64,000 bases of DNA from Bacteriovorax sp. Seq25_V (lineage in GTDB: Bacteria > Bdellovibrionota > Bacteriovoracia > Bacteriovoracales > Bacteriovoracaceae). Both the position numbers and the translations under genes were made by a program. The notes beneath the pieces were generated by a model. The model was not told the origin of the DNA. It ran no database searches and saw nothing but the letters and a program-made list of their open reading frames with translations. The DNA lies in NCBI RefSeq assembly GCF_000447795.1, contig NZ_AUNI01000011.1, forward strand, positions 1 to 64,000. The letters are read 5' to 3'. Positions within the stretch are counted from its first letter, which is position 1. Every line of letters begins with the position of its first letter. Shown here one piece after another: positions 7,188 through 17,470 of the stretch.

Positions 7188-8582
7188 ATGAGCAGGATGC
7201 TAATACAACGCTTTGCTAGAACGAGAACAATTTTAGTTGCCGCTTCAGCGCTTTCAATCTTCAGTGTAGGCCATATGCTTTATGACCTAACAGCTAAATA
7301 TAAAAGAGTAGGGCAAATACAATCTGGTCTACAAATTTGTGGAAGTAGGGCAAATCAATCATACACGGCTTCAGTCATTGGTGATGCAAGTTCAATCTAT
7401 CTCGATAGTAATTTTACAAGCGCAACGGAGGAATGTTTTGCAGAAGCCTCAACTCTAGTTGAAGATTTCAAATCTCTCCCAACTGCAATTGCTAAAAAAA
7501 TGAATACTCTAGTTTCAAATGTACATTGGTTCCATGAATCTCTTCGTTCAACCGGAAATGGTTTCACTGTTAAAGCATCAGATGATGGAAGAAATACGTC
7601 GTCGAAATATTCTGCAGTAGAAAGTGAAATTGGTGCCACTACTGAACTAATTGATTCACATGGAGAACAATTAAATAACTCACTATCAAATCTTAAAGTT
7701 GCTCTATTTTTTTCAGGGTTAGTTCTTTTAGTTTGTGGTGGATGGGAAGCAATTGAGAGACGCAAATTAAAGCAAGCTCAATCTGAAATCGAAGATGAAG
7801 CATTTGCGGAGTTAATTTCGGAAGATCATTCAACTGCAACTAAAGTTGAAGAAATCATCGTTCAAGCTCTTGAGCTAAATGAGATGGTTCACTGTTCTAA
7901 ACTTCTAACAACATACAGACAGAATGTTTTAAAATCATTTGAAAACCTTTCAACATATACGCCAATGAAAGATCTTGTTACTCCAATGGCGATGGTAACA
8001 TCAACAGACGAAGTCGAAACAGAGATCAAGGCAAATCAAGTTTGGGAAGAGTCAGAGGCCGTAGAGGAGAAGGAAGAAGTTTCTTGTGACATCGAGCCGA
8101 TCGCATCTAAAATTGTAGATCATTTATCTAATAAATTAATTGCTGAAGGAATCATGGTCGATATGGACCTTGCTGATTCATTCGTCAATGGTGACGCAGA
8201 AAGTTTAGAGCAAGTTCTTTACTATGTAGTTCTTGATGCTTTAAAAAATACAAACTACGCATCTGATAAAAAAGTAGTGATTAATGGTAAAGGTTTAGGA
8301 AGTGTTTACAACCTTGAAGTAACGTCATGCGGTCAGGGAAGAGAGTCAATCGAAAACACATCAATCGAAATCTCTAAAGAAATTATCGCAGATCTCAACG
8401 GAAGAATGGAAGTTGTAAATTATTACAATGACCAAAAAGAAGTTGCTGGTAGAAAAGTTAGAGTAATCTTAAAAACAGCTCAAAAAGAAAGAGCAATCAT
8501 TACTCCAGCGCAATCAGAAAAAACTCTTGTTCGCCTTGAAAAAGGAACGAAGAGAGAAATTCTCGAAAGACTTAACGCTTAA
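7188..8582 (+). CDS. Two-TM sensor protein with degenerate histidine-kinase-like ATPase domain
   Basis: 464 aa: TM1 about residues 14-33, a periplasmic loop of about 135 aa, TM2 about 171-186, a cytoplasmic helical region with an acidic stretch (VEEKEEVS), and a C-terminal domain (about 310-440) laid out like a GHKL ATPase. That domain has ESLEQVLYYVVLDALKNTNY in the N-box position and SCGQGRESIENTSIEISKEI in the G-box position. The N-box asparagine and DxGxG motif are not recognisable, and no phospho-accepting His motif is seen. It may be a regulatory or dead kinase. AAGGA lies upstream of the ATG. Its TAA is formed at the left inverted repeat of the insertion sequence, so the original C-terminus may have differed. 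Confidence 0.55.
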   Translation: MSRMLIQRFARTRTILVAASALSIFSVGHMLYDLTAKYKRVGQIQSGLQICGSRANQSYTASVIGDASSIYLDSNFTSATEECFAEASTLVEDFKSLPTAIAKKMNTLVSNVHWFHESLRSTGNGFTVKASDDGRNTSSKYSAVESEIGATTELIDSHGEQLNNSLSNLKVALFFSGLVLLVCGGWEAIERRKLKQAQSEIEDEAFAELISEDHSTATKVEEIIVQALELNEMVHCSKLLTTYRQNVLKSFENLSTYTPMKDLVTPMAMVTSTDEVETEIKANQVWEESEAVEEKEEVSCDIEPIASKIVDHLSNKLIAEGIMVDMDLADSFVNGDAESLEQVLYYVVLDALKNTNYASDKKVVINGKGLGSVYNLEVTSCGQGRESIENTSIEISKEIIADLNGRMEVVNYYNDQKEVAGRKVRVILKTAQKERAIITPAQSEKTLVRLEKGTKREILERLNA

Positions 8583-9479
8583 CTGCCCCCGGGCAGTGGT
8601 GTTAGCACTCCCAAATTCTCATTGTGATAACACATATAAATTTCCAGATGTTTCCTCAAGGCATCTGGACATTTCGTCGTCCCCCATGTCTTCTAATTAG
8701 TTTTCCAATTCCATCTCTAAGCATTGCGAAGTTATGATTTAATGTGAAAATTGGATCAAACCTTAATCTCTTGAGCTCCCCTTGACCAGTTGAACATCCT
8801 CGACCACCTATGAATTGCTGATGAGTTGACTGTGGTAAATAAGTTCTAACCACGGAATTATAGACACTATGATCATCAGACTGTACGAGTGCGTTTGGTT
8901 TTACACAGTTTTTGATTTCTCCAAATAAACTTCTCAACTCTCTTAAATGTTCACTCTTGCGCTTCCCATATTTTCGTCGAGACTTTTCAGCAAGCAAGCC
9001 GTTTGCAGGTATCCGTGCAACTCGAAAACCAGTATTGATCGATTCTTTGCGTTTACCACCATCGAAACCGACAAAGGCTTCATCTTAGTATGCTCAATTG
9101 TAATAAGATCATCGAATTGAATATGCTCAACTTGCTTCACACGAAGGTATGCTCGAAAGTTCTTATTCTTTACTGCGCATCTCTTTGCATGATAATCTAG
9201 TTTTCTAGCAACTGTTTTGGGATTGATTCTCAGAACTCGTGCGATTCGATTCATCGACATCTTAGAACAAAGAAGTTCGTAGACCATGCGATTAACTCGT
9301 CTCTTCATCTGTCCTTTTGCTAGAGAAAAAGTGGAGCTTGAGAATCGAGTGCTACAACTTTTGCATTTGTAGCGTTGAATTATTCGAGAGTCATCTCGTC
9401 GTTTGAACGTTCCATCTTTGATAATTGATTCGCGTTTTTGATGATAATTGCAGTTTTGATTAGGGCAGCCGTGTTTCAT
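8579..9479 (-). pseudogene. Transposase pseudogene, IS1-like zinc-ribbon DDE type, two frameshifts
   Basis: The N-terminal zinc ribbon (CPNQNCNYH, then YKCKSCSTRFSS) is followed by a helix-turn-helix region (SMNRIARVLRINPKTVARKL) and a DDE-type core (HIQFDDL, then LVQSDDHSVYN, then GGRGCSTGQGELK and DPIFTLNHNFAMLRD). The reading frame breaks at about 9030 (after RSIL; the next frame resumes GFRVARIPANGLLAEKSRR) and again at about 8689 (after KLIRR; resumes TWGTTKCPDALRKHLEIY). Both breaks look like one lost base. After correction the frame ends TPLPGGS-stop inside the left inverted repeat. A programmed -1 frameshift could explain one break but hardly both. Confidence 0.8.
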
Positions 9480-9609
9480 ACAGCTTCAAATGCAATATAA
9501 GAACAAGTTGATACTTTGTAATTATTGAATATTATTGAGTAGATTTCGGTGCGAATTCAAAAAATGAACTTCACTATTTTAAATCTAACACCAATCCTCG
9601 GGGGCAGTT
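8581..9609. mobile_element. Decayed insertion sequence, about 1.03 kb, with 25-bp imperfect terminal inverted repeats
   Basis: Left end (8581-8605) starts AACTGCCCCCGGGCAG and ends TGGTGTTAG. The right end (9585-9609) read inward starts AACTGCCCCCGAGGAT and ends TGGTGTTAG, so about 20 of 25 positions match. The ends enclose only the broken transposase. If the repeat starts at ACTGCC, a TA dinucleotide flanks both ends, which could be a 2-bp target duplication or chance. No longer duplication is seen. Confidence 0.8.
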
Positions 9610-11230
9610 AGAACATTCTCTTAGACATTTCTTTATAATTAATATTTCCTAGAATTTGATCCTTGATGACATCAAAATTCTCTTGTGAGAAATCACTTTT
9701 GAAGATATTTCTAAAAATCTTCTCATGGCCCTTGCCCTTTGAGTAACAGAAAGCAAAGAGGTGATCTCCAAAGATATGGCCTACAATTCTTGCTAGAGTA
9801 TAGATATCCTTGAGTCTCAACCCTTTTAATAATTCCTTATCGATTTCTTTATTTCCAAGAATACCGAGGGCGATTTTATAGAGTCTTTTCTTTGAATCTT
9901 TCGTCTTCTTTGATCTTATAAGCTTTTTGTAGTCGAGGTAGAGGTCACACTTGCGGTAGGGATTTATAAGCTTTGATGAGAAGTAGGCGATTGTACATTG
10001 CTTAATGAAGAATCGTAGAATGTTGGGGCGGTTCGTCTTTTGAAGTATTGTAGGGTAGACGTCAAATTTATTCTTTTCTTGAACTTTATGAAAGATATGA
10101 GTTCCCGCTAGGTATGAAATTCTATTTATTGAATAATTTGGACAGAAGAAGCGATCACTTGTTGGAAGCTTGAAGCTTCTGCCGCGGGTAATGAGGTCGT
10201 AGTAAAAATTTCTAAGAACGAGTGGTTTTATTTTATTAATTTCTTTTCTAACATAATCAAGTTTGATGTGATCATAGAGGTGAAAGTCTTCGATATCGGA
10301 AGAGAGTTCAAGACTCAAGGTTTTAACGACTTCGTCACAGATGAAAGCAAAGTTTTCGGGAACGTTATCGGAGAAATTTATCGCGCCAGTTTCGATAATA
10401 TATTCGTGAATATCAAAATCTGGATCCTCACTTAAGTGTTCGTACCAGTAGATCTGACTTTCGTACTTAAGCCAGGGAGAAGATGTGATGAGGACATATT
10501 CTCTCTTTGAGAATTTTACAACTTTATCATTGATGGCTTTTTTATCTTTGTTAAGTTTCCAGTAAACATCATCAAGGTTTTGATTGATGATGGTATGGAT
10601 AATGTCTTTTTTTGTCATTTCCATGACTTTCTTTGGAAGTTTGTCTGGAACAATATGGTATTCGCCGAAAAGTACGAGGATTTTTCGCTCAGGGTTTTCT
10701 TTATAAGATTTGGCTATTACTTTCGAAGCTTGATGATCTCGAGACTTGAGGGAGCCATTAGTATTAAGAGCGAGAATTGGGATGTCTTCTTTTTTCGCGA
10801 TCTCAAAGAAACGACGGTAGTATGTCCAAGGAAAGCGCCACGATTCTTTATAGTTAATACTTTCTAAAAACTCGAGTTCTGTAATATGGTTGGAAAGAAA
10901 ATAGTCTATATATTCTTGATGTTTGACATGTACAAACTCAAGGGCAATAACAAAGTCGTGTCTCTTGGATGTTAGGATGCGAATGAGTCTTTCTAGATTT
11001 CGCGTACTCTGATCAAAGGTGTGAAAATCCCCAAGGTAAATTATGTCTGACTGTTCAATTGCTTCAGTCAGTTCTCTAATAGAGGAATCTGAAAATTTCC
11101 GGTTGGCAAACTTCTGTTGATCTTTTTGATAGGCCAAGAGCTGTGCTGATGGCTTTCCTTCTAAGGATTGGGCCTTAGACTTGAGATAGTTGAATATGCT
11201 TAGATGAACATTTTCTAATGAGTTTTTCAT
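9608..11230 (-). CDS. ChaN-domain (Tiki/haem-binding-like) protein, 540 aa
   Basis: Residues about 45-270 match the ChaN/Tiki fold: IIYLGDFHTFDQS (family GExHD/N), FVIALEFVHVKHQEYIDYFL, WTYYRRFFEIAKKEDIPILALN, and ILVLFGEYHI. ChaN proteins are lipoproteins that bind haem. This one lacks a signal peptide or lipobox and carries about 270 further residues of unknown, basic, helical sequence, so a cytoplasmic role is possible. The TAA stop lies in the right inverted repeat of the insertion sequence, so the last residues may be a product of the insertion. A 23-bp gap separates it from the upstream 949-aa gene; the two are probably co-transcribed. Confidence 0.65.
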   Translation of the reverse strand: MKNSLENVHLSIFNYLKSKAQSLEGKPSAQLLAYQKDQQKFANRKFSDSSIRELTEAIEQSDIIYLGDFHTFDQSTRNLERLIRILTSKRHDFVIALEFVHVKHQEYIDYFLSNHITELEFLESINYKESWRFPWTYYRRFFEIAKKEDIPILALNTNGSLKSRDHQASKVIAKSYKENPERKILVLFGEYHIVPDKLPKKVMEMTKKDIIHTIINQNLDDVYWKLNKDKKAINDKVVKFSKREYVLITSSPWLKYESQIYWYEHLSEDPDFDIHEYIIETGAINFSDNVPENFAFICDEVVKTLSLELSSDIEDFHLYDHIKLDYVRKEINKIKPLVLRNFYYDLITRGRSFKLPTSDRFFCPNYSINRISYLAGTHIFHKVQEKNKFDVYPTILQKTNRPNILRFFIKQCTIAYFSSKLINPYRKCDLYLDYKKLIRSKKTKDSKKRLYKIALGILGNKEIDKELLKGLRLKDIYTLARIVGHIFGDHLFAFCYSKGKGHEKIFRNIFKSDFSQENFDVIKDQILGNINYKEMSKRMF

Positions 11231-11253: not shown

Positions 11254-14103
11254 TTAGTTAAAGATTTGTCCAATTAAAATATTGTTTAGAGATTGTTGAG
11301 TGTTCTTGTAGATTACTTCAATTCCCTTACCAACTTCAGAATGCTTTTCTAAGATTCTTCTGATGTCATTAAGTTTTGGAATTTCTAATCCTTGAAGAAT
11401 TGCTGAAAGTGGAGTTCCTGCGGCACTTGAAAGGATGAAGCTTACAAAGTGTAAAATTTCATACTCGCCGTGGATTACTAAAAGTTCATTTTGTTCTGCG
11501 AAGATTCTAAGTACGTCACCATTTTCAGCTTTTTCAAGTTGAGTGTGAGTAATTCTAGAGTGGATGTCACTTCTTTGTTTTAACTTTGTTTCGAGGTAAA
11601 GGTCTTCGTGCCCAGGGTAGATTGGGTATGTCGGAAGCTTGACCAGGTCATTTACCATGAAAGGGTTTTCATAGTTGATCTTCTTTGAACCTGTGTCATT
11701 TGAGCTTACTTCATTTAAAGTTTCTTCAAGCTGATACTTAAAGTGAGAAAGAATACAGCTAGTATGCCAAGGGTAATTTAGAGCAAGTGTATTAATTGAT
11801 TTAAGTGCACTGTTAAAAAGTTCGCTTAGCTCCATTGGATGACAAGACTTCAGTCTTTCCTTATCGAAGCTGAAGACATCAAGTACTTGATGGTGCTGAG
11901 CAGGAACAGTGTCTGTGTTAAGCATAAACTTAGGTACAAGCATTGCTTTTAGCTTAGACTTGGTTTTCTTGAGTCCACCGTTGAAAGTAAGTTGAATAAC
12001 TTGTTTACCAACTGTCGTTTCAAAGTACTCTCTAAAGAGGTTAATGTTAAGACTTAGTACTTTTGGTGTTAGGCCAAAGTATTGGTAGTATGCATGACCA
12101 TATTCTTCAGACTTAACTTTATAAAGATCTGAAGTCGTCAGCTCTAATGAGATCTCGTTCTCATTCGTATAATTAACAATCAGAAGGTACGGGTAGAGTT
12201 GTTCTCTTCTTACTGAAAGTCCTAGTAGATCTGAAGTGAAGTTTTCTGCGCGGCCAGTGATTTGATCAACCATAAAAAACTGATCAAGAGGCACACAAGT
12301 ACGAGTTAGGTTTTTGAAGTAACTTGGGTGCGTGATATTATTTGACTCACTAGAATTACTTAAAAGCTTTCCATTTAAGATTGCATCTTGGTGGAAGTCA
12401 AAAACTAATCCTGGCTCTGGTTCGTTTTGATAGAGAGGAGAGTTAATTGTTTCCTTGCTCGTAATAAACTTTAAGAATTCTTGTCTTAAAAGTTCAAATT
12501 TCGAAAAGTGCATTAGTTGGCCTGCAAAGTTGAGGCTTAGGCACTGCTCTTTTTGCATCTTTGGTGCAGACGTATTGAAGAGATCTAATTTATTAGAATA
12601 AACTCTTTTGCTAAAAATATAGAGGTGTTTAGTGATTTCACCTTTTCCTTTTAGGTCTTCGAAATTGATTGAAGCATGGAGTTTATATCTCTTTAGTAAG
12701 CCTTCTACTTTTTCAGAGTGACTTGGTACAAATAGCTTCTGATTTGAGAAGACAAACAAGTAACCATTATTTGCTAGCTTCTCACAATTTGATTGTATTG
12801 AAGTCAGAAGATAGTGGTGCGGGTTTGTTTTTGGCATTGTTGCGAGATTTAAAACAATTCTATCGTAAATGCTACTTTCGTGTGTTTCGTTTGTATTAAA
12901 AAACGCCATTTGGCCATCAGAGTCTACTTGCGACTTTGAGTTCTTCTGTTTGAATAACTGGCAAATAAGAGTTACTGGGTCATGGCTTTGGTTCTTTGCC
13001 ATGTTAACTAGGAAAGTAAGAAGTTGTAGCTCCTGACATACTTTCAGGTATGATCCTGTAAGGAAGCCTTTTCCATTAAATTCTGGGCAGATTACTTCGT
13101 TCCACTTCTCTCCAATATTATTTTCCTGCGCTAGCCAGTGAGAAAGTGCGAAAGAGTAGAGGTGGTCACCAGAGAAAAGAGTGTTGAGACACTTTGGCCC
13201 TCCACCTAGATTGTAGTAACCACTATGTCCTTCTAACCATTCTGTTAAAAAGATAAGAAGATCGTTAACAAATAATCCAAAATTTCTATTACTAATCGAA
13301 TGAGAGAATAGTTCAGAGTCTGTGATTTCTAGTTCGTAATCAAGAGGAACTTCGTGGTTACAGATTTTTAAGAATTCAACAGAGCCAAGATTAGTTAGAG
13401 TTATAGAAAGCTCCTCTATAACAGAGCTCATTTCAATTGATGGTCTAAACCAGCTAAACTCATTCGTTCTAAGAGAGTCACAGATAAGCTCTGTAGAACT
13501 TGCTTTCTTGAAGATTTTGCTGATTGAATAGTCTGGGTTTAATAACTCACTACTTGTTAAAGACTTAGTTAATTGTCTTGAAATTAACGAAAGAAACTTA
13601 AGCTTCAAGAGATAGATATTTACTGCTCTAAGGGAGTAGTGAGAGATAAACTTTGCAATATCTGAAGCATATGGAGAGTGCTCGTTTGTGAAGTTTATCC
13701 AGAACTGATTATAGTCGCTAATTTCACTAATATTGATATTTTTACTTTCAGCGAAATTTAAAAATTCATTATAAACAGTTAGTTTTAGTGTTTTATTACG
13801 AGTACTAAAGGTCTTTGCAATTTTGATTGCTTCTTCAAAAAGTAGTTTGATTGTCTTTTTGAGTTTTATTCCGTCTTTTGTTGGAAGGCTTTCACCCTTC
13901 CATTGTGGGATAACGTAGTTACCAATTGAAAAGTGATTGCTTTGATTTAGTGGTGACTCAGACGTAGATATAGCGTTCGCACCAGCAATATGCGCTGGTG
14001 AGATATCTCCAGTAACTATCTCACTTTTTCCTTGAGATGCACTGAGATTCTGGGTCGACGATGAAGTCAACCAATTAACGGCCATGAAAGGACGTTTATT
14101 CAC
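11254..14103 (-). CDS. Large protein resembling an eroded N6-adenine DNA methylase with specificity-like C-terminus
   Basis: 949 aa, mostly helical N-terminus (1-330). Residues 337-348 (VICPEFNGKGFL) sit where HsdM/type IIG methylases have the SAM motif I, DPxCGxGxFL; the Asp and first Gly are replaced. Residues 413-423 (YDRIVLNLATM) sit where motif IV (DxxxxNPPF) belongs; NPPF has become NLAT. The following stretch YLLTSIQSNCEKLANNGYLF, then KLFVPS, fits the conserved part after motif IV (LLKPGGR, then PDGVLF). The last 70 residues (ILSSAAGTPLSAILQGLEIPKL) resemble HsdS half-repeats. This is inference from pattern. The protein is unlikely to methylate DNA. No restriction gene is adjacent. 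Confidence 0.5.
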   Translation of the reverse strand: MNKRPFMAVNWLTSSSTQNLSASQGKSEIVTGDISPAHIAGANAISTSESPLNQSNHFSIGNYVIPQWKGESLPTKDGIKLKKTIKLLFEEAIKIAKTFSTRNKTLKLTVYNEFLNFAESKNINISEISDYNQFWINFTNEHSPYASDIAKFISHYSLRAVNIYLLKLKFLSLISRQLTKSLTSSELLNPDYSISKIFKKASSTELICDSLRTNEFSWFRPSIEMSSVIEELSITLTNLGSVEFLKICNHEVPLDYELEITDSELFSHSISNRNFGLFVNDLLIFLTEWLEGHSGYYNLGGGPKCLNTLFSGDHLYSFALSHWLAQENNIGEKWNEVICPEFNGKGFLTGSYLKVCQELQLLTFLVNMAKNQSHDPVTLICQLFKQKNSKSQVDSDGQMAFFNTNETHESSIYDRIVLNLATMPKTNPHHYLLTSIQSNCEKLANNGYLFVFSNQKLFVPSHSEKVEGLLKRYKLHASINFEDLKGKGEITKHLYIFSKRVYSNKLDLFNTSAPKMQKEQCLSLNFAGQLMHFSKFELLRQEFLKFITSKETINSPLYQNEPEPGLVFDFHQDAILNGKLLSNSSESNNITHPSYFKNLTRTCVPLDQFFMVDQITGRAENFTSDLLGLSVRREQLYPYLLIVNYTNENEISLELTTSDLYKVKSEEYGHAYYQYFGLTPKVLSLNINLFREYFETTVGKQVIQLTFNGGLKKTKSKLKAMLVPKFMLNTDTVPAQHHQVLDVFSFDKERLKSCHPMELSELFNSALKSINTLALNYPWHTSCILSHFKYQLEETLNEVSSNDTGSKKINYENPFMVNDLVKLPTYPIYPGHEDLYLETKLKQRSDIHSRITHTQLEKAENGDVLRIFAEQNELLVIHGEYEILHFVSFILSSAAGTPLSAILQGLEIPKLNDIRRILEKHSEVGKGIEVIYKNTQQSLNNILIGQIFN

Positions 14104-14335
14104 TATATATTCCCCAATAATTTCGTGTTTTTACGTGTCTTTTGTCTGTATCGATTTCGAGGCTATTTTATAGCCTAAGGTCTACAATTTGTCATGGAAA
14201 TTTTATGGAGAAATTATTCTAAGTGACTGAATTCATGATGATTTTATTTCTTAAAGATTCTGTCATTTATGACGACAAGCATTGTGATATGATTGTATAC
14301 GTTGTTTTACAATATAAATTATTTTGGAGCACAGC

Positions 14336-15109
14336 ATGGAAGATAAACAATTAGAAGAAGCTTTAGCAGAAACAGTAGAAAAAAGTTTTAATGATTCAGA
14401 ACTTGAAGACATTATGAACGAAATTGAAAACCTTGAAAAAGAATTTTCAGATGATTCTATTTCTACAGAGGCACAGTTGTCGCTTGAGAAAGCTAAAGAT
14501 AATGATCTTCAAAGAGTAATCGATGCAGAAGTTGAAAGTATTTCAAATGCTTTTGATGAAATAACAGCTCCGGAAGAAGTGGAAGTGGTTGCTGAGTCAG
14601 CATCTGAAGATGAATTCAATGATGAAGATTTTGCTTCAATGGTTGATGAAACGGAAGAAATGACTGCTGCTGCAACAGAAACTGAAACACAAGATGATGT
14701 AATGGATACAATTATGGCAGAAGTTGAAGCGAGTGATGAAGCTGTTGCTGAAACTTTTGCTGAATCTAATGAAGATCCTTTTTTGGGAGAAGATATGGCC
14801 GATATCGAAGCTCATATGGAGGAAGCAAGTAATGTTGTTTCTCTTACATCAGCTCCATCGAAAGCAACTTCTTCAAAAACAAGTTCAGCAATTGACTTTA
14901 ATGCGTCAGGAAATATGGATCTAAGTATCAACTTTAATATTGCAGGGCAAACAGCGCACCTTAGAGTTGAAGATGGTGGGTTAAAAGTATTTCTCAAAGG
15001 TGTAGAATTAACTATTGATGAAACTAGTGGATGTAGTGTAAAAATGGCCGGCGGAGTACAATTCTCTGTGCCATTAACAGAAACTAAAGCGGCAAAGAAA
15101 ACAGCTTAA
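14336..15109 (+). CDS. Acidic 257-aa protein with small conserved-looking C-terminal domain, function unknown
   Basis: The ATG at 14336 follows TTGGAG by 6 nt and is preferred to the in-frame TTG at 14324. The first 165 residues are very acidic (repeats of E, D, A, S; for example EAEVESISNAFDE) and probably disordered or coiled coil. Residues about 190-248 look like a beta-rich domain (NMDLSINFNIAGQTAHLRV, then LKVFLKGVELTI, then VKMAGGVQFSVPL), and the C-terminus is basic (KAAKKTA). It lies 13 nt upstream of rsmD and is probably in the same transcript. No family is recognised. Confidence 0.7.
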   Translation: MEDKQLEEALAETVEKSFNDSELEDIMNEIENLEKEFSDDSISTEAQLSLEKAKDNDLQRVIDAEVESISNAFDEITAPEEVEVVAESASEDEFNDEDFASMVDETEEMTAAATETETQDDVMDTIMAEVEASDEAVAETFAESNEDPFLGEDMADIEAHMEEASNVVSLTSAPSKATSSKTSSAIDFNASGNMDLSINFNIAGQTAHLRVEDGGLKVFLKGVELTIDETSGCSVKMAGGVQFSVPLTETKAAKKTA

Positions 15110-15122
15110 AAAGATTTTTATA

Positions 15123-15695
15123 ATGAGTGTAAATATTCTCGGTGGGCATGCTAAAGGGCATGCCCTTTTTGTTCCTAAAGGTGATGCAACAAGACCGACA
15201 ACGGTCATGCTTCGAAGAAAGTTTTTTGATTCCTATCAAAACTGTGAGGATATGACTTTTATCGATGTCTTTGCTGGTACGGGGGCGATGGCCTTCGAGG
15301 CCCTATCGAGAGGGGCAGATAGAGCAGTTCTTTGTGAACTTAATAAGTCTTCCTATCAAGTGCTAATAAAAAATATTCAATCAATCAAAAAAATGATGCC
15401 TGATGCATCTATTGAGTCTCAACAAATTGATGCTAAAAAATACTTGGCATATCTTGCCAAGACGAAGCAGCATTATGATGAAGATACTCATATCTTTATT
15501 GATCCCCCTTATGAATTGAAAGCTAATTACCTCGAGTGCTTAAAGACTTTATTTGATTCTGAGTTCCCTGGTTATGTGTGGGTTGAGTCCGACCGTCAAA
15601 AAGGGATAAAAATTGAAGAGATTGAGGAAGCGGGATACACTGTAAAAAAGACTTTTAAGCAGGGAACTACTTTTATCTGTCTTGTCGTAAAATAA
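15123..15695 (+). CDS. rsmD: 16S rRNA (guanine966-N2)-methyltransferase RsmD
   Basis: 190 aa, the normal length. It has the N-terminal GGHAKGHAL (family GGxxxGrxL), TRPTTVMLRRKFFD, SAM motif DVFAGTGAMAFEALSRGA and catalytic motif IFIDPPY. It methylates G966 of 16S rRNA. The rsmD-coaD order seen here is common across bacteria and supports both calls. Confidence 0.92.
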   Translation: MSVNILGGHAKGHALFVPKGDATRPTTVMLRRKFFDSYQNCEDMTFIDVFAGTGAMAFEALSRGADRAVLCELNKSSYQVLIKNIQSIKKMMPDASIESQQIDAKKYLAYLAKTKQHYDEDTHIFIDPPYELKANYLECLKTLFDSEFPGYVWVESDRQKGIKIEEIEEAGYTVKKTFKQGTTFICLVVK

Positions 15696-15764: not shown

Positions 15765-16250
15765 ATGAAAAAAGCATTATATGCTGGTACATTCGACCCA
15801 TTTACAAATGGTCACCAAGATATCTTACTCAGATCTCTTTCAATCTTTGACGAAGTTACAGTTCTTGTTGCTAATAATCGCGCAAAGACTCCTCTTTTTT
15901 CTGCAGAAGATAGAGTTGAGATGATTAAACAGTGTTATGTAAATGAACCAAAAATTAAGGTCGCCGCGTGGGAAGGACTTGTTGTTGATTACGCGAAGAA
16001 AAATGGTATTGAGACCATTATTAGAGGGCTGAGACCAACAGGGGACTTTGAGGCTGAATTTCAAATGGCATCGATGAATCGTCGTCTTTATCACGATATT
16101 GAAACTGTTTTTCTTGTGACTGAGGGAGAGAACTACTATGTGTCGAGTTCTCTTGTAAAAGAAATTTTTAAACACGGAAGGGACGTTAAAGAATTTCTTC
16201 CTGAAAAAATACATGATTGGCTAATAAAAAACGGAAAGGAATCTCTATGA
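15765..16250 (+). CDS. coaD: Phosphopantetheine adenylyltransferase CoaD
   Basis: 161 aa. It has GTFDPFTNGHQDI (nucleotidyltransferase HxGH region), IIRGLRPTGDFEAEFQMASMN and YYVSSSLVKEI (ISSTKIR position). It adenylylates 4'-phosphopantetheine, the penultimate step of coenzyme A synthesis. GATAGGA-type ribosome site precedes the ATG. The TGA stop shares ATGA with the next gene. Confidence 0.95.
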   Translation: MKKALYAGTFDPFTNGHQDILLRSLSIFDEVTVLVANNRAKTPLFSAEDRVEMIKQCYVNEPKIKVAAWEGLVVDYAKKNGIETIIRGLRPTGDFEAEFQMASMNRRLYHDIETVFLVTEGENYYVSSSLVKEIFKHGRDVKEFLPEKIHDWLIKNGKESL

Positions 16251-17470
16251 AATTGTCTGAACGTGTAAGTTCTATCGAAGAAAGTGTTACGCTAAAGCTA
16301 AACACGCTAGCAAACCAGCTAACGGCGGAAGGCAAGAAGATTTATAATTTAACGGCCGGTCAGTTACCTTATAGACCACCAAAAGACTTTGTCGAAAACA
16401 TTCGAGGAGAACTCGATTTTCTAAAGAGTTTCCAATACAGCCCAGTTGCTGGAGAAGCTCAGCTTAGACAAAAGTTACTTGATTATTTCGAGCTTTCTAG
16501 AGAAGTTAACTTAGAAGATGTTGATACTACTTTTTCAACGATTGTTGGAAATGGTGGAAAGCATGTTCTTGCAAATATCTTCGCTTGCCTTGTAAACCCA
16601 GGGGACGAAGTAATCGTTCTTGCTCCATTTTGGTTATCATATCCTGAAATGATTAAAGTTAATGGGGGAGTTGTTAGAATTTTAGAAACAACTATCTTCG
16701 ATGCTTTCACACCATCATTAGCAGAATTAAAGGCGATGATTAATGATAAAACGAAGGCGATTGTTATCAATAGTCCTAATAACCCATCGGGGATTCACTA
16801 CTCAGATGAGTGGATGAAAGACTTTGCTAATCTTATGGTGGATTACCCAAATGTCTCATTGATCAGTGATGAAATTTATTTTGAGTTAAGTTATTACGAC
16901 CCGGCTCCAACCTATTTTTATCAGCATAAGCCTGAACTGTTAGAGAGAACTATTGTCGTTGATGGAATTTCTAAAAACCTCGCTTCAACAGGTCTTAGAC
17001 TTGGATTTGCAATTGGACCGTCTGCTTTCATTAAGGGTGTAAGTAGTTATCAAGGTCACACTGCTTCTGGTCCTTGCACACTTGTGCAAAAAGCTCTTGA
17101 AAAATACGACATGAGTTCTATCAAGGAGTTTTTAAATCCAATTAAAAATCACTTAAGAGAAAATTCAATGATCGTAAGAGAGAGCTTTAGGGAAGCAAAA
17201 CTGGACAAGTGTTGGTACCAGACGACGTCTGCGTTTTACTATCTAGTAGATTTTTCTCAGTGTCCTCTTATGGAGAGATTTAAGAAATCAGCTGATGATG
17301 AAGCTGACTATTCTGCTCAGATTTGTGAAGAAATGATTGAGAAATACGGTATCGCAATGGTTCCAGGGGTTTCATTTGGTGTAAAAAACTGCGCGCGAAT
17401 CAGCCTTGTACTTCCAAAAGAGCCATTTACTGAGGCCATGTCAATTATCGTGAAGGCACTACTTGATTAA
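16247..17470 (+). CDS. PLP-dependent class I/II aminotransferase (aspartate aminotransferase-like)
   Basis: 407 aa. Motifs: IYNLTAGQLPYRPP, SPNNPSG (PLP phosphate/substrate region), SDEIYFELSY, and the lysine segment DGISKNLASTGLRLGFAIG with the PLP-binding Lys in SK. The arginine for the substrate carboxylate is in NCARISL. It is closest in layout to the AspB family (subgroup I-gamma), but the exact amino acid cannot be read from sequence. The ATG at 16247 overlaps the coaD stop (ATGA), so translation is coupled; an upstream TTG at 16217 is not needed. Confidence 0.85.
   Translation: MKLSERVSSIEESVTLKLNTLANQLTAEGKKIYNLTAGQLPYRPPKDFVENIRGELDFLKSFQYSPVAGEAQLRQKLLDYFELSREVNLEDVDTTFSTIVGNGGKHVLANIFACLVNPGDEVIVLAPFWLSYPEMIKVNGGVVRILETTIFDAFTPSLAELKAMINDKTKAIVINSPNNPSGIHYSDEWMKDFANLMVDYPNVSLISDEIYFELSYYDPAPTYFYQHKPELLERTIVVDGISKNLASTGLRLGFAIGPSAFIKGVSSYQGHTASGPCTLVQKALEKYDMSSIKEFLNPIKNHLRENSMIVRESFREAKLDKCWYQTTSAFYYLVDFSQCPLMERFKKSADDEADYSAQICEEMIEKYGIAMVPGVSFGVKNCARISLVLPKEPFTEAMSIIVKALLD

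Follow-up and report, generated by a model that had tools for sequence, protein, structure and literature searches.

In the 64,000-nucleotide stretch of Bacteriovorax sp. Seq25_V DNA analysed here (the window), a gene on the minus strand encodes a 949-residue protein that is predicted to keep the fold of a restriction-type adenine methylase while its catalytic motifs have been lost. Our preferred reading, which we hold to be somewhat probable, is that this pseudo-methyltransferase is a non-catalytic, probably sequence-specific DNA-binding housekeeping protein derived from a type IIG-like methylase. This suggests that a defence-type enzyme turned into an ordinary DNA-binding protein of the cell, kept by bacteria of predatory lineages in single copy and at a constant position in the chromosome. 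With no library searched naming it, some 950 residues encoded by a core gene of predatory lineages are dark, and among the open-licence literature we found no papers on the pseudo-methylase family.

The open frame and its methylase fold

The frame occupies positions 11254-14103 of the minus strand (949 codons plus stop, GTG start) and is fully open, as the earlier note had read it, with the plus-strand reading of the same interval being full of stops. The GTG start is plausible because the peptide FxAxxW[LF] directly behind it (residues 6-12; 14068-14088) is conserved in relatives, with F6 in 84%, A8 in 77%, and W11 in 90% of the order's sequences, and this peptide might work as a docking peptide. 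On the same minus strand, it is followed by a variable linker (residues 13-57; 13933-14067), which is poorly conserved and probably disordered, with pLDDT below 50 over residues 1-57, and by a helical, HsdM-like N-terminal domain (residues 58-303; 13195-13932), for which the VIA alignments to HsdM chains begin at model residue 64-75. Next come the Rossmann adenine-methylase core (residues 304-582; 12358-13194), assigned from the model's strand order, Foldseek, and VIA, then a target-recognition-like domain (residues 583-735; 11899-12357), spanned by VIA matches to M.BseCI, CamA, and an HsdS, and finally a C-terminal region with a long last helix (residues 736-949; 11257-11898), which is the least conserved part of the protein.

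By sequence, the pseudo-methylase gave chance matches only in Pfam, PADLOC, NCBIfam, PHROGs, and the PDB, and a 32-sequence profile found no match in the PDB; matches to DUF4476 (E 0.12) and to an esterase (E 0.25) from the sequence-only searches were dismissed as chance. In the AF2 model (mean pLDDT 79), the strands are ordered as in class I methyltransferases, and the model's top Foldseek matches are HsdM and adenine DNA methylases (2okc, E 4.7e-5, probability 1.0). VIA gave Z scores of 13.5 to 2f8l, about 12 to EcoR124I HsdM (12.1, residues 73-592), 12.7 to M.BseCI and 10.9 to CamA, both spanning about residues 267-949, and 8.7 to HsdS over residues 597-949, in the C-terminal half. An orthologue from another family-level group (f8), modelled separately with a pLDDT of 82, reached Foldseek E values down to 1.8e-10 and VIA Z scores of 14.6-19.4 to 2f8l, DrdV, HsdM, CamA, M.BseCI, and M.TaqI. 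At the level of these predicted models, the Eco57I/type IIG-HsdM adenine-methylase fold is well shown. The adenine-methylase architecture proposed in the earlier note therefore stands, the model containing the Rossmann core whose absence would have spoken against it, and support was likewise found for the HsdS-like C-terminus and for the succession of strands and helices that it described behind motif IV.

Regarding descent, the profile of the order aligned with a profile of four other family-level groups (f4, f5, f12, and f13) at probability 98.1 and E 1.3e-13 over 778 columns; against f4/f5 alone, the match was weak (probability 82, E 1e-5) and left motif IV unaligned. Among the f4/f5 orthologues, two reach PF07669 at E 2.6e-11 and 4.2e-16 and a third at 1.3e-6, and their TaqI_C matches are weak and under the curated cut-off; these orthologues are tied to the window protein by profile comparison and synteny. 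A chance likeness to methylase motifs was ruled out by such same-locus orthologues having a real motif I and a PF07669 match. The models supply the Rossmann and target-recognition parts that membership by descent in the Eco57I/type IIG-like adenine methylase superfamily would demand of the fold, and a fused endonuclease domain, which is a type IIG feature, was sought in the window protein by Pfam without any nuclease match.

Catalytic motifs and the guarded pocket

In the AF2 model, the first, second, and fourth strands of the core lie at residues 304-312, 336-342, and 413-420. Since the first strand ends at 312, the position of motif I belongs to LNTLFSGDHLY (residues 306-316; 13156-13188), and CPEFNGKGFL (residues 339-348; 13060-13089), which the earlier note had taken for motif I, lies where the second strand ends, in the position of motif II, and aligns there with the GCDID of f4. 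The spacing of about 75 residues reported there is, therefore, the distance from motif II to motif IV. A profile alignment, of low confidence in this stretch and in agreement with the strand order, sets GDHL of the window protein against GNFL of relatives having an intact DPTMGSGNFL. The placing of NLAT (residues 419-422) at motif IV proved right, as it lies at the end of beta-4. Hence, the claim that both catalytic motifs are lost holds insofar as they are non-canonical throughout the order, but motif I had been put on the wrong strand of the fold; in motif IV, the PP-aromatic is gone, while the catalytic Asn is kept, with N419 present in 92% of 103 sequences.

Throughout the order, the motif IV region (YDRIVLNLATMPKTNPHH, residues 413-430; 12814-12867) follows the pattern N-[LI]-x-x-x-P-K-x-N-P in place of NPPY, and among 101-103 sequences, besides N419, L/I/V is found at 420 in 95%, P424 in 99%, K425 in 96%, and N427 in 98%. 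In the SAM loop of the same set, G312 is invariant (100%), and F or Y at 310 replaces the first glycine of GxG in 98%, the DxxxGxG pattern of motif I being absent from the order in this stretch, which is aligned at low confidence and agrees with the strand order; D or E occupies position 341 in 91%. The string [NDS]PP appears near motif IV in only 1 of 104 distinct orthologues, three residues out of register, and [NDS]PP[YFWH] at motif IV is absent from all members examined.

Each clade has its own fixed substitute at motif IV. In f4/f5, DPTMGSGNFL or close variants occupy motif I, motif II is mostly GCDID-like, and motif IV is [CA]PPE, with phmmer aligning CCPPES of f5 to ANPPYV of M.BseCI; f13 shows LCAGSGQF or LCASSGFF and is without a motif IV, and in f8, f12, and f26-f28, TLR and EE are invariant over 25 sequences. 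In the motif table, the row of locus L204 should be disregarded, its chosen ORF being probably in the wrong frame. An intact motif I and an intact motif IV occur together in no member examined. Relatives with intact motifs had been named as evidence against the earlier idea, and f4/f5 do keep motif I, but they are still without NPPY. The order retains the Asn without PP and f4/f5 retain PP without the Asn, which makes an ancestor with NPP probable, as well as losses that were independent at least in part. The loss of motifs in the family is well shown, and the origin of the pseudo-methylase can be read from those lineages whose SAM loop is intact.

That the protein is kept by selection, as had been claimed, agrees with dN/dS in the three closest pairs, of which two belong to other families and one to the genus of the window: the values of 0.057/1.77, 0.059/1.26, and 0.156/2.82 give a ratio of about 0.03-0.06 and are rough because dS is high. 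A decaying pseudogene is ruled out by this low dN/dS and by open frames in 13 family-level groups. The segment of highest conservation is beta-5 with its next loop (GYLFVFSNQKLFVPS, residues 444-465; 12709-12774), which together with the motif IV region ranks among the lowest-entropy windows of the alignment, the motif IV value being reached by 11 of 874. Judging from these alignments, the pocket appears to be rebuilt and guarded, not decayed. With its fold kept, its catalytic motifs lost, and purifying selection acting on it, the protein qualifies as a pseudo-methyltransferase that is probably unable to methylate. We suggest keeping in mind two caveats to this dead-methylase reading, namely that N419 and D/E341 are largely kept, and that conservation of the rebuilt pocket equals that of an active site, which would leave room for ligand binding or for other chemistry.

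Distribution and the rsmD-coaD locus

The pseudo-methylase is found in 125 of the 129 genomes of the order and is missing from none of the 73 whose completeness is 90% or more and contamination 5% or less; a few genomes have a second, mostly partial match, and the source genome has one copy. The named relatives are Bacteriovorax, Halobacteriovorax, and other Bacteriovoracaceae or Bdellovibrionota records. A pairwise search found nothing in other families, and single-sequence pattern scans of genome and viral contigs found no relatives because the family diverges fast. A profile search gave weak matches within ORFs of about 900 aa in f12, divergent to rsmD-coaD-aminotransferase in the same arrangement as in the window and the order. 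Inspection of this locus in further families, together with a second-profile search of the phylum, extended the family by 63 genomes from 12 additional family-level groups (f4, f5, f8, f10, f12, f13, and f24-f29), with rsmD, coaD, or the aminotransferase nearby in most of the fetched loci; orthology across the families is well shown. At the rsmD-coaD locus of the genomes examined from f2, f3, f6, f7, f9, f11, and f14, no pseudo-methylase was found. A FastTree tree of the three neighbour proteins, with weakly supported deep branches, places the carriers in one large group apart from f6, f11, and f14, with the non-carriers f2, f3, f7, and f9 nested inside, and its simplest reading would be presence at the base of the carrier group plus some losses.

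Two candidates were rejected as members. An 840-aa ORF adjoining coaD in f3 is, from its sequence, what we take to be SecA, and a second-profile match in f9 (genome G043, L198:3935-7444, plus strand) is a separate Eco57I-type methylase of 1169 aa at another locus, with NPPY and TaqI_C, which is useful as an active comparison inside the phylum.

In the window, the synteny anchors on the plus strand are rsmD (15123-15695, PF03602), a coaD-like gene (15765-16250, cytidylyltransferase-like PF01467), and a class I/II aminotransferase gene (16217-17470, PF00155), which in 80 loci of the order are near the pseudo-methylase in 69, 49, and 67, respectively. A divergent upstream gene (14324-15109, plus strand; near in 32 of the 80 loci) leads into rsmD, and its very acidic 261-aa product weakly resembles proteins encoded at the corresponding position in f8 and f26. 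On the other side, a 23-base gap separates the pseudo-methylase from a downstream gene on the same minus strand (9608-11230; near in 39 of 80) encoding a 540-aa ChaN-like protein, the first third of which is PF04187 (E 1.8e-23); the ChaN-like gene recurs beside the pseudo-methylase in f1, f8, f24, and f29, and the two genes probably form one operon. A transposon-like insertion remnant (8656-9479, minus strand) separates the ChaN-like gene from the next conserved one; it shows TnsD-like and ISL3-type HTH similarity and a weak DDE match, its larger ORF being matched in 1 of 80 relatives' loci. A 464-aa protein encoded at 7188-8582 (plus strand) has no Pfam match and is near the locus in 64 of 80 cases; it is seemingly membrane-anchored, and its C-terminus resembles, by eye only, a degenerate histidine-kinase ATPase domain. 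In f8, f12, f26, and f28, a conserved gene of about 240 aa without a Pfam match lies directly downstream of the pseudo-methylase (L118:5670-6377, L117:8322-9044, and in L175, L180, L184, L185, L200, and L201), with possible relatives in f24, f25, and f29.

Proposed role and comparison with known systems

The ancestor of much of the phylum would have carried an Eco57I/type IIG-like adenine methylase, divergent beside rsmD-coaD and built of an HsdM-like helical domain, a Rossmann core, and a target-recognition domain, which was recruited to a housekeeping job where binding was required and methyl transfer was not. With the catalytic constraint relaxed, the parts of motif IV that disappeared would have differed between clades, and the SAM loop would have gone from most of them, with the scaffold, the target-recognition domain, and the reshaped pocket remaining under strong selection. 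The present protein may clamp double-stranded DNA at particular sequences, like CamA, M.BseCI, and type IIG enzymes, without methylating it, presumably through its target-recognition part and core, and might act on the chromosome in a regulatory or architectural capacity, where the N-terminal FxAxxW peptide could be the docking site of a partner. DNA binding is predicted from the fold, and either it or a nucleoid role is plausible; the recruitment away from methylation put forward in the earlier note is supported. The broader proposal, that a restriction-type methylase turned into a near-obligatory chromosome-binding protein before many families split, its catalytic centre being replaced clade by clade around a highly conserved pocket, we consider a real possibility that falls short of being probable. 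If it is true, a dead type IIG-like enzyme gave rise to a novel class of chromosome protein in bacteria.

Since the pocket is guarded, the idea stays alive that it was rebuilt for a new ligand or for a new non-SAM reaction on nucleic acid, making the protein an enzyme or a sensor. The former active-site segments are indeed among the most conserved windows and hold clade-specific invariant sets (PKxN in the order, TLR and EE in f8/f12/f26-f28), but sets that differ by clade are hard to fit to one shared chemistry, and purely structural relics, too, keep conserved pocket walls; we regard this as unlikely. Because inactive guiding subunits exist, we also considered that the protein recognises the target as the non-catalytic subunit of a methyltransferase complex, with methylation performed by an active enzyme encoded elsewhere. 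Gcd10p with Gcd14p, and DNMT3L with its partners, are precedents (PMC1282579), the conserved N-terminal peptide could dock a partner, and the conserved 240-aa neighbour exists in several families; however, a search of the order's loci did not find this neighbour, and adjacency to RsmD proves nothing, the rsmD-coaD pairing being common. Furthermore, no other DNA adenine methylase is recognisable by PF02384, PF07669, PF01555, and PF02086 in the source genome (99.97% complete), where the matches to these four families were RsmD, a PrmC-like gene that carries SNPPY and adjoins a release-factor gene, and one place below the cut-off. A catalytic partner of that type is, therefore, unlikely, and we give the subunit idea only a small chance.

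Continued adenine methyltransferase activity despite divergent motifs would suit the retention of N419 (92%) and D/E341 (91%) in the order, and the motif I kept in f4/f5, but it is very improbable, with the PP-aromatic missing from all members examined, the first Gly of the SAM loop being F or Y in 98%, and the Asn being C or A wherever motif I survives. A defence role, which the earlier note had raised as a possibility, would draw on a fold family that serves restriction-modification and BREX, with PglX among the Foldseek and VIA matches; the protein might then be, for instance, a sensor or decoy from a restriction or BREX methylase. Nevertheless, such a role lacks support because nearly every genome of the order carries the gene once, as a core gene at a fixed place amid housekeeping genes, unlike the patchy defence genes, because no defence gene was recognised alongside, and because PADLOC found nothing for the pseudo-methylase; we give it hardly any credence.

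Compared with known systems, the Eco57I-type and type IIG modules (PF07669; DrdV, BpuSI, MmeI), M.BseCI, and CamA have the same domain order as our preferred DNA-binding pseudo-methylase, i.e., a helical N-part, a Rossmann core, and a target-recognition part. In contrast to them, all orthologues examined here are without NPPY and most without the SAM motif I, no nuclease domain was recognised, and the gene is a core gene at a fixed place. HsdM and HsdS of type I restriction-modification are structurally like the two halves of the window protein by VIA, whereas here there is one fused chain with its motifs lost and no hsdR or hsdS neighbour recognised. BREX PglX/BrxX shares the methylase fold (VIA Z 9.5 to 8q56), but the protein described here has lost the catalytic motifs and is near-universal in its order, and no PglZ, BrxC, or other BREX genes are found among its nearest genes (Pfam, PADLOC) or conserved neighbours.

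In its logic, the pseudo-methylase comes nearest to sc-mtTFB of yeast, a protein of methylase fold whose glycine loop holds a bulky Tyr and whose motif IV is poor, and which is now a transcription factor (PMC1282579); this Tyr matches F/Y310 of the pseudo-methylase. Together with Kar4p, Gcd10p, and DNMT3L, sc-mtTFB belongs to the non-catalytic methyltransferase homologues that lost the SAM motif and kept the fold (PMC1282579), all of them eukaryotic and of other methylase classes, whereas the pseudo-methylase is restriction-type, bacterial, and spread over many families of one phylum. Dead methyltransferases with new jobs are documented in eukaryotes (mtTFB, DNMT3L). Here, a restriction-type enzyme has apparently come to serve a bacterial order, along with its relatives, as a housekeeping gene that is nearly universal. 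In this case, the intermediates survive, with motif I intact and motif IV altered in f4/f5 and both altered elsewhere, and the stepwise route from a selfish or defence-type enzyme to a core protein can be followed.
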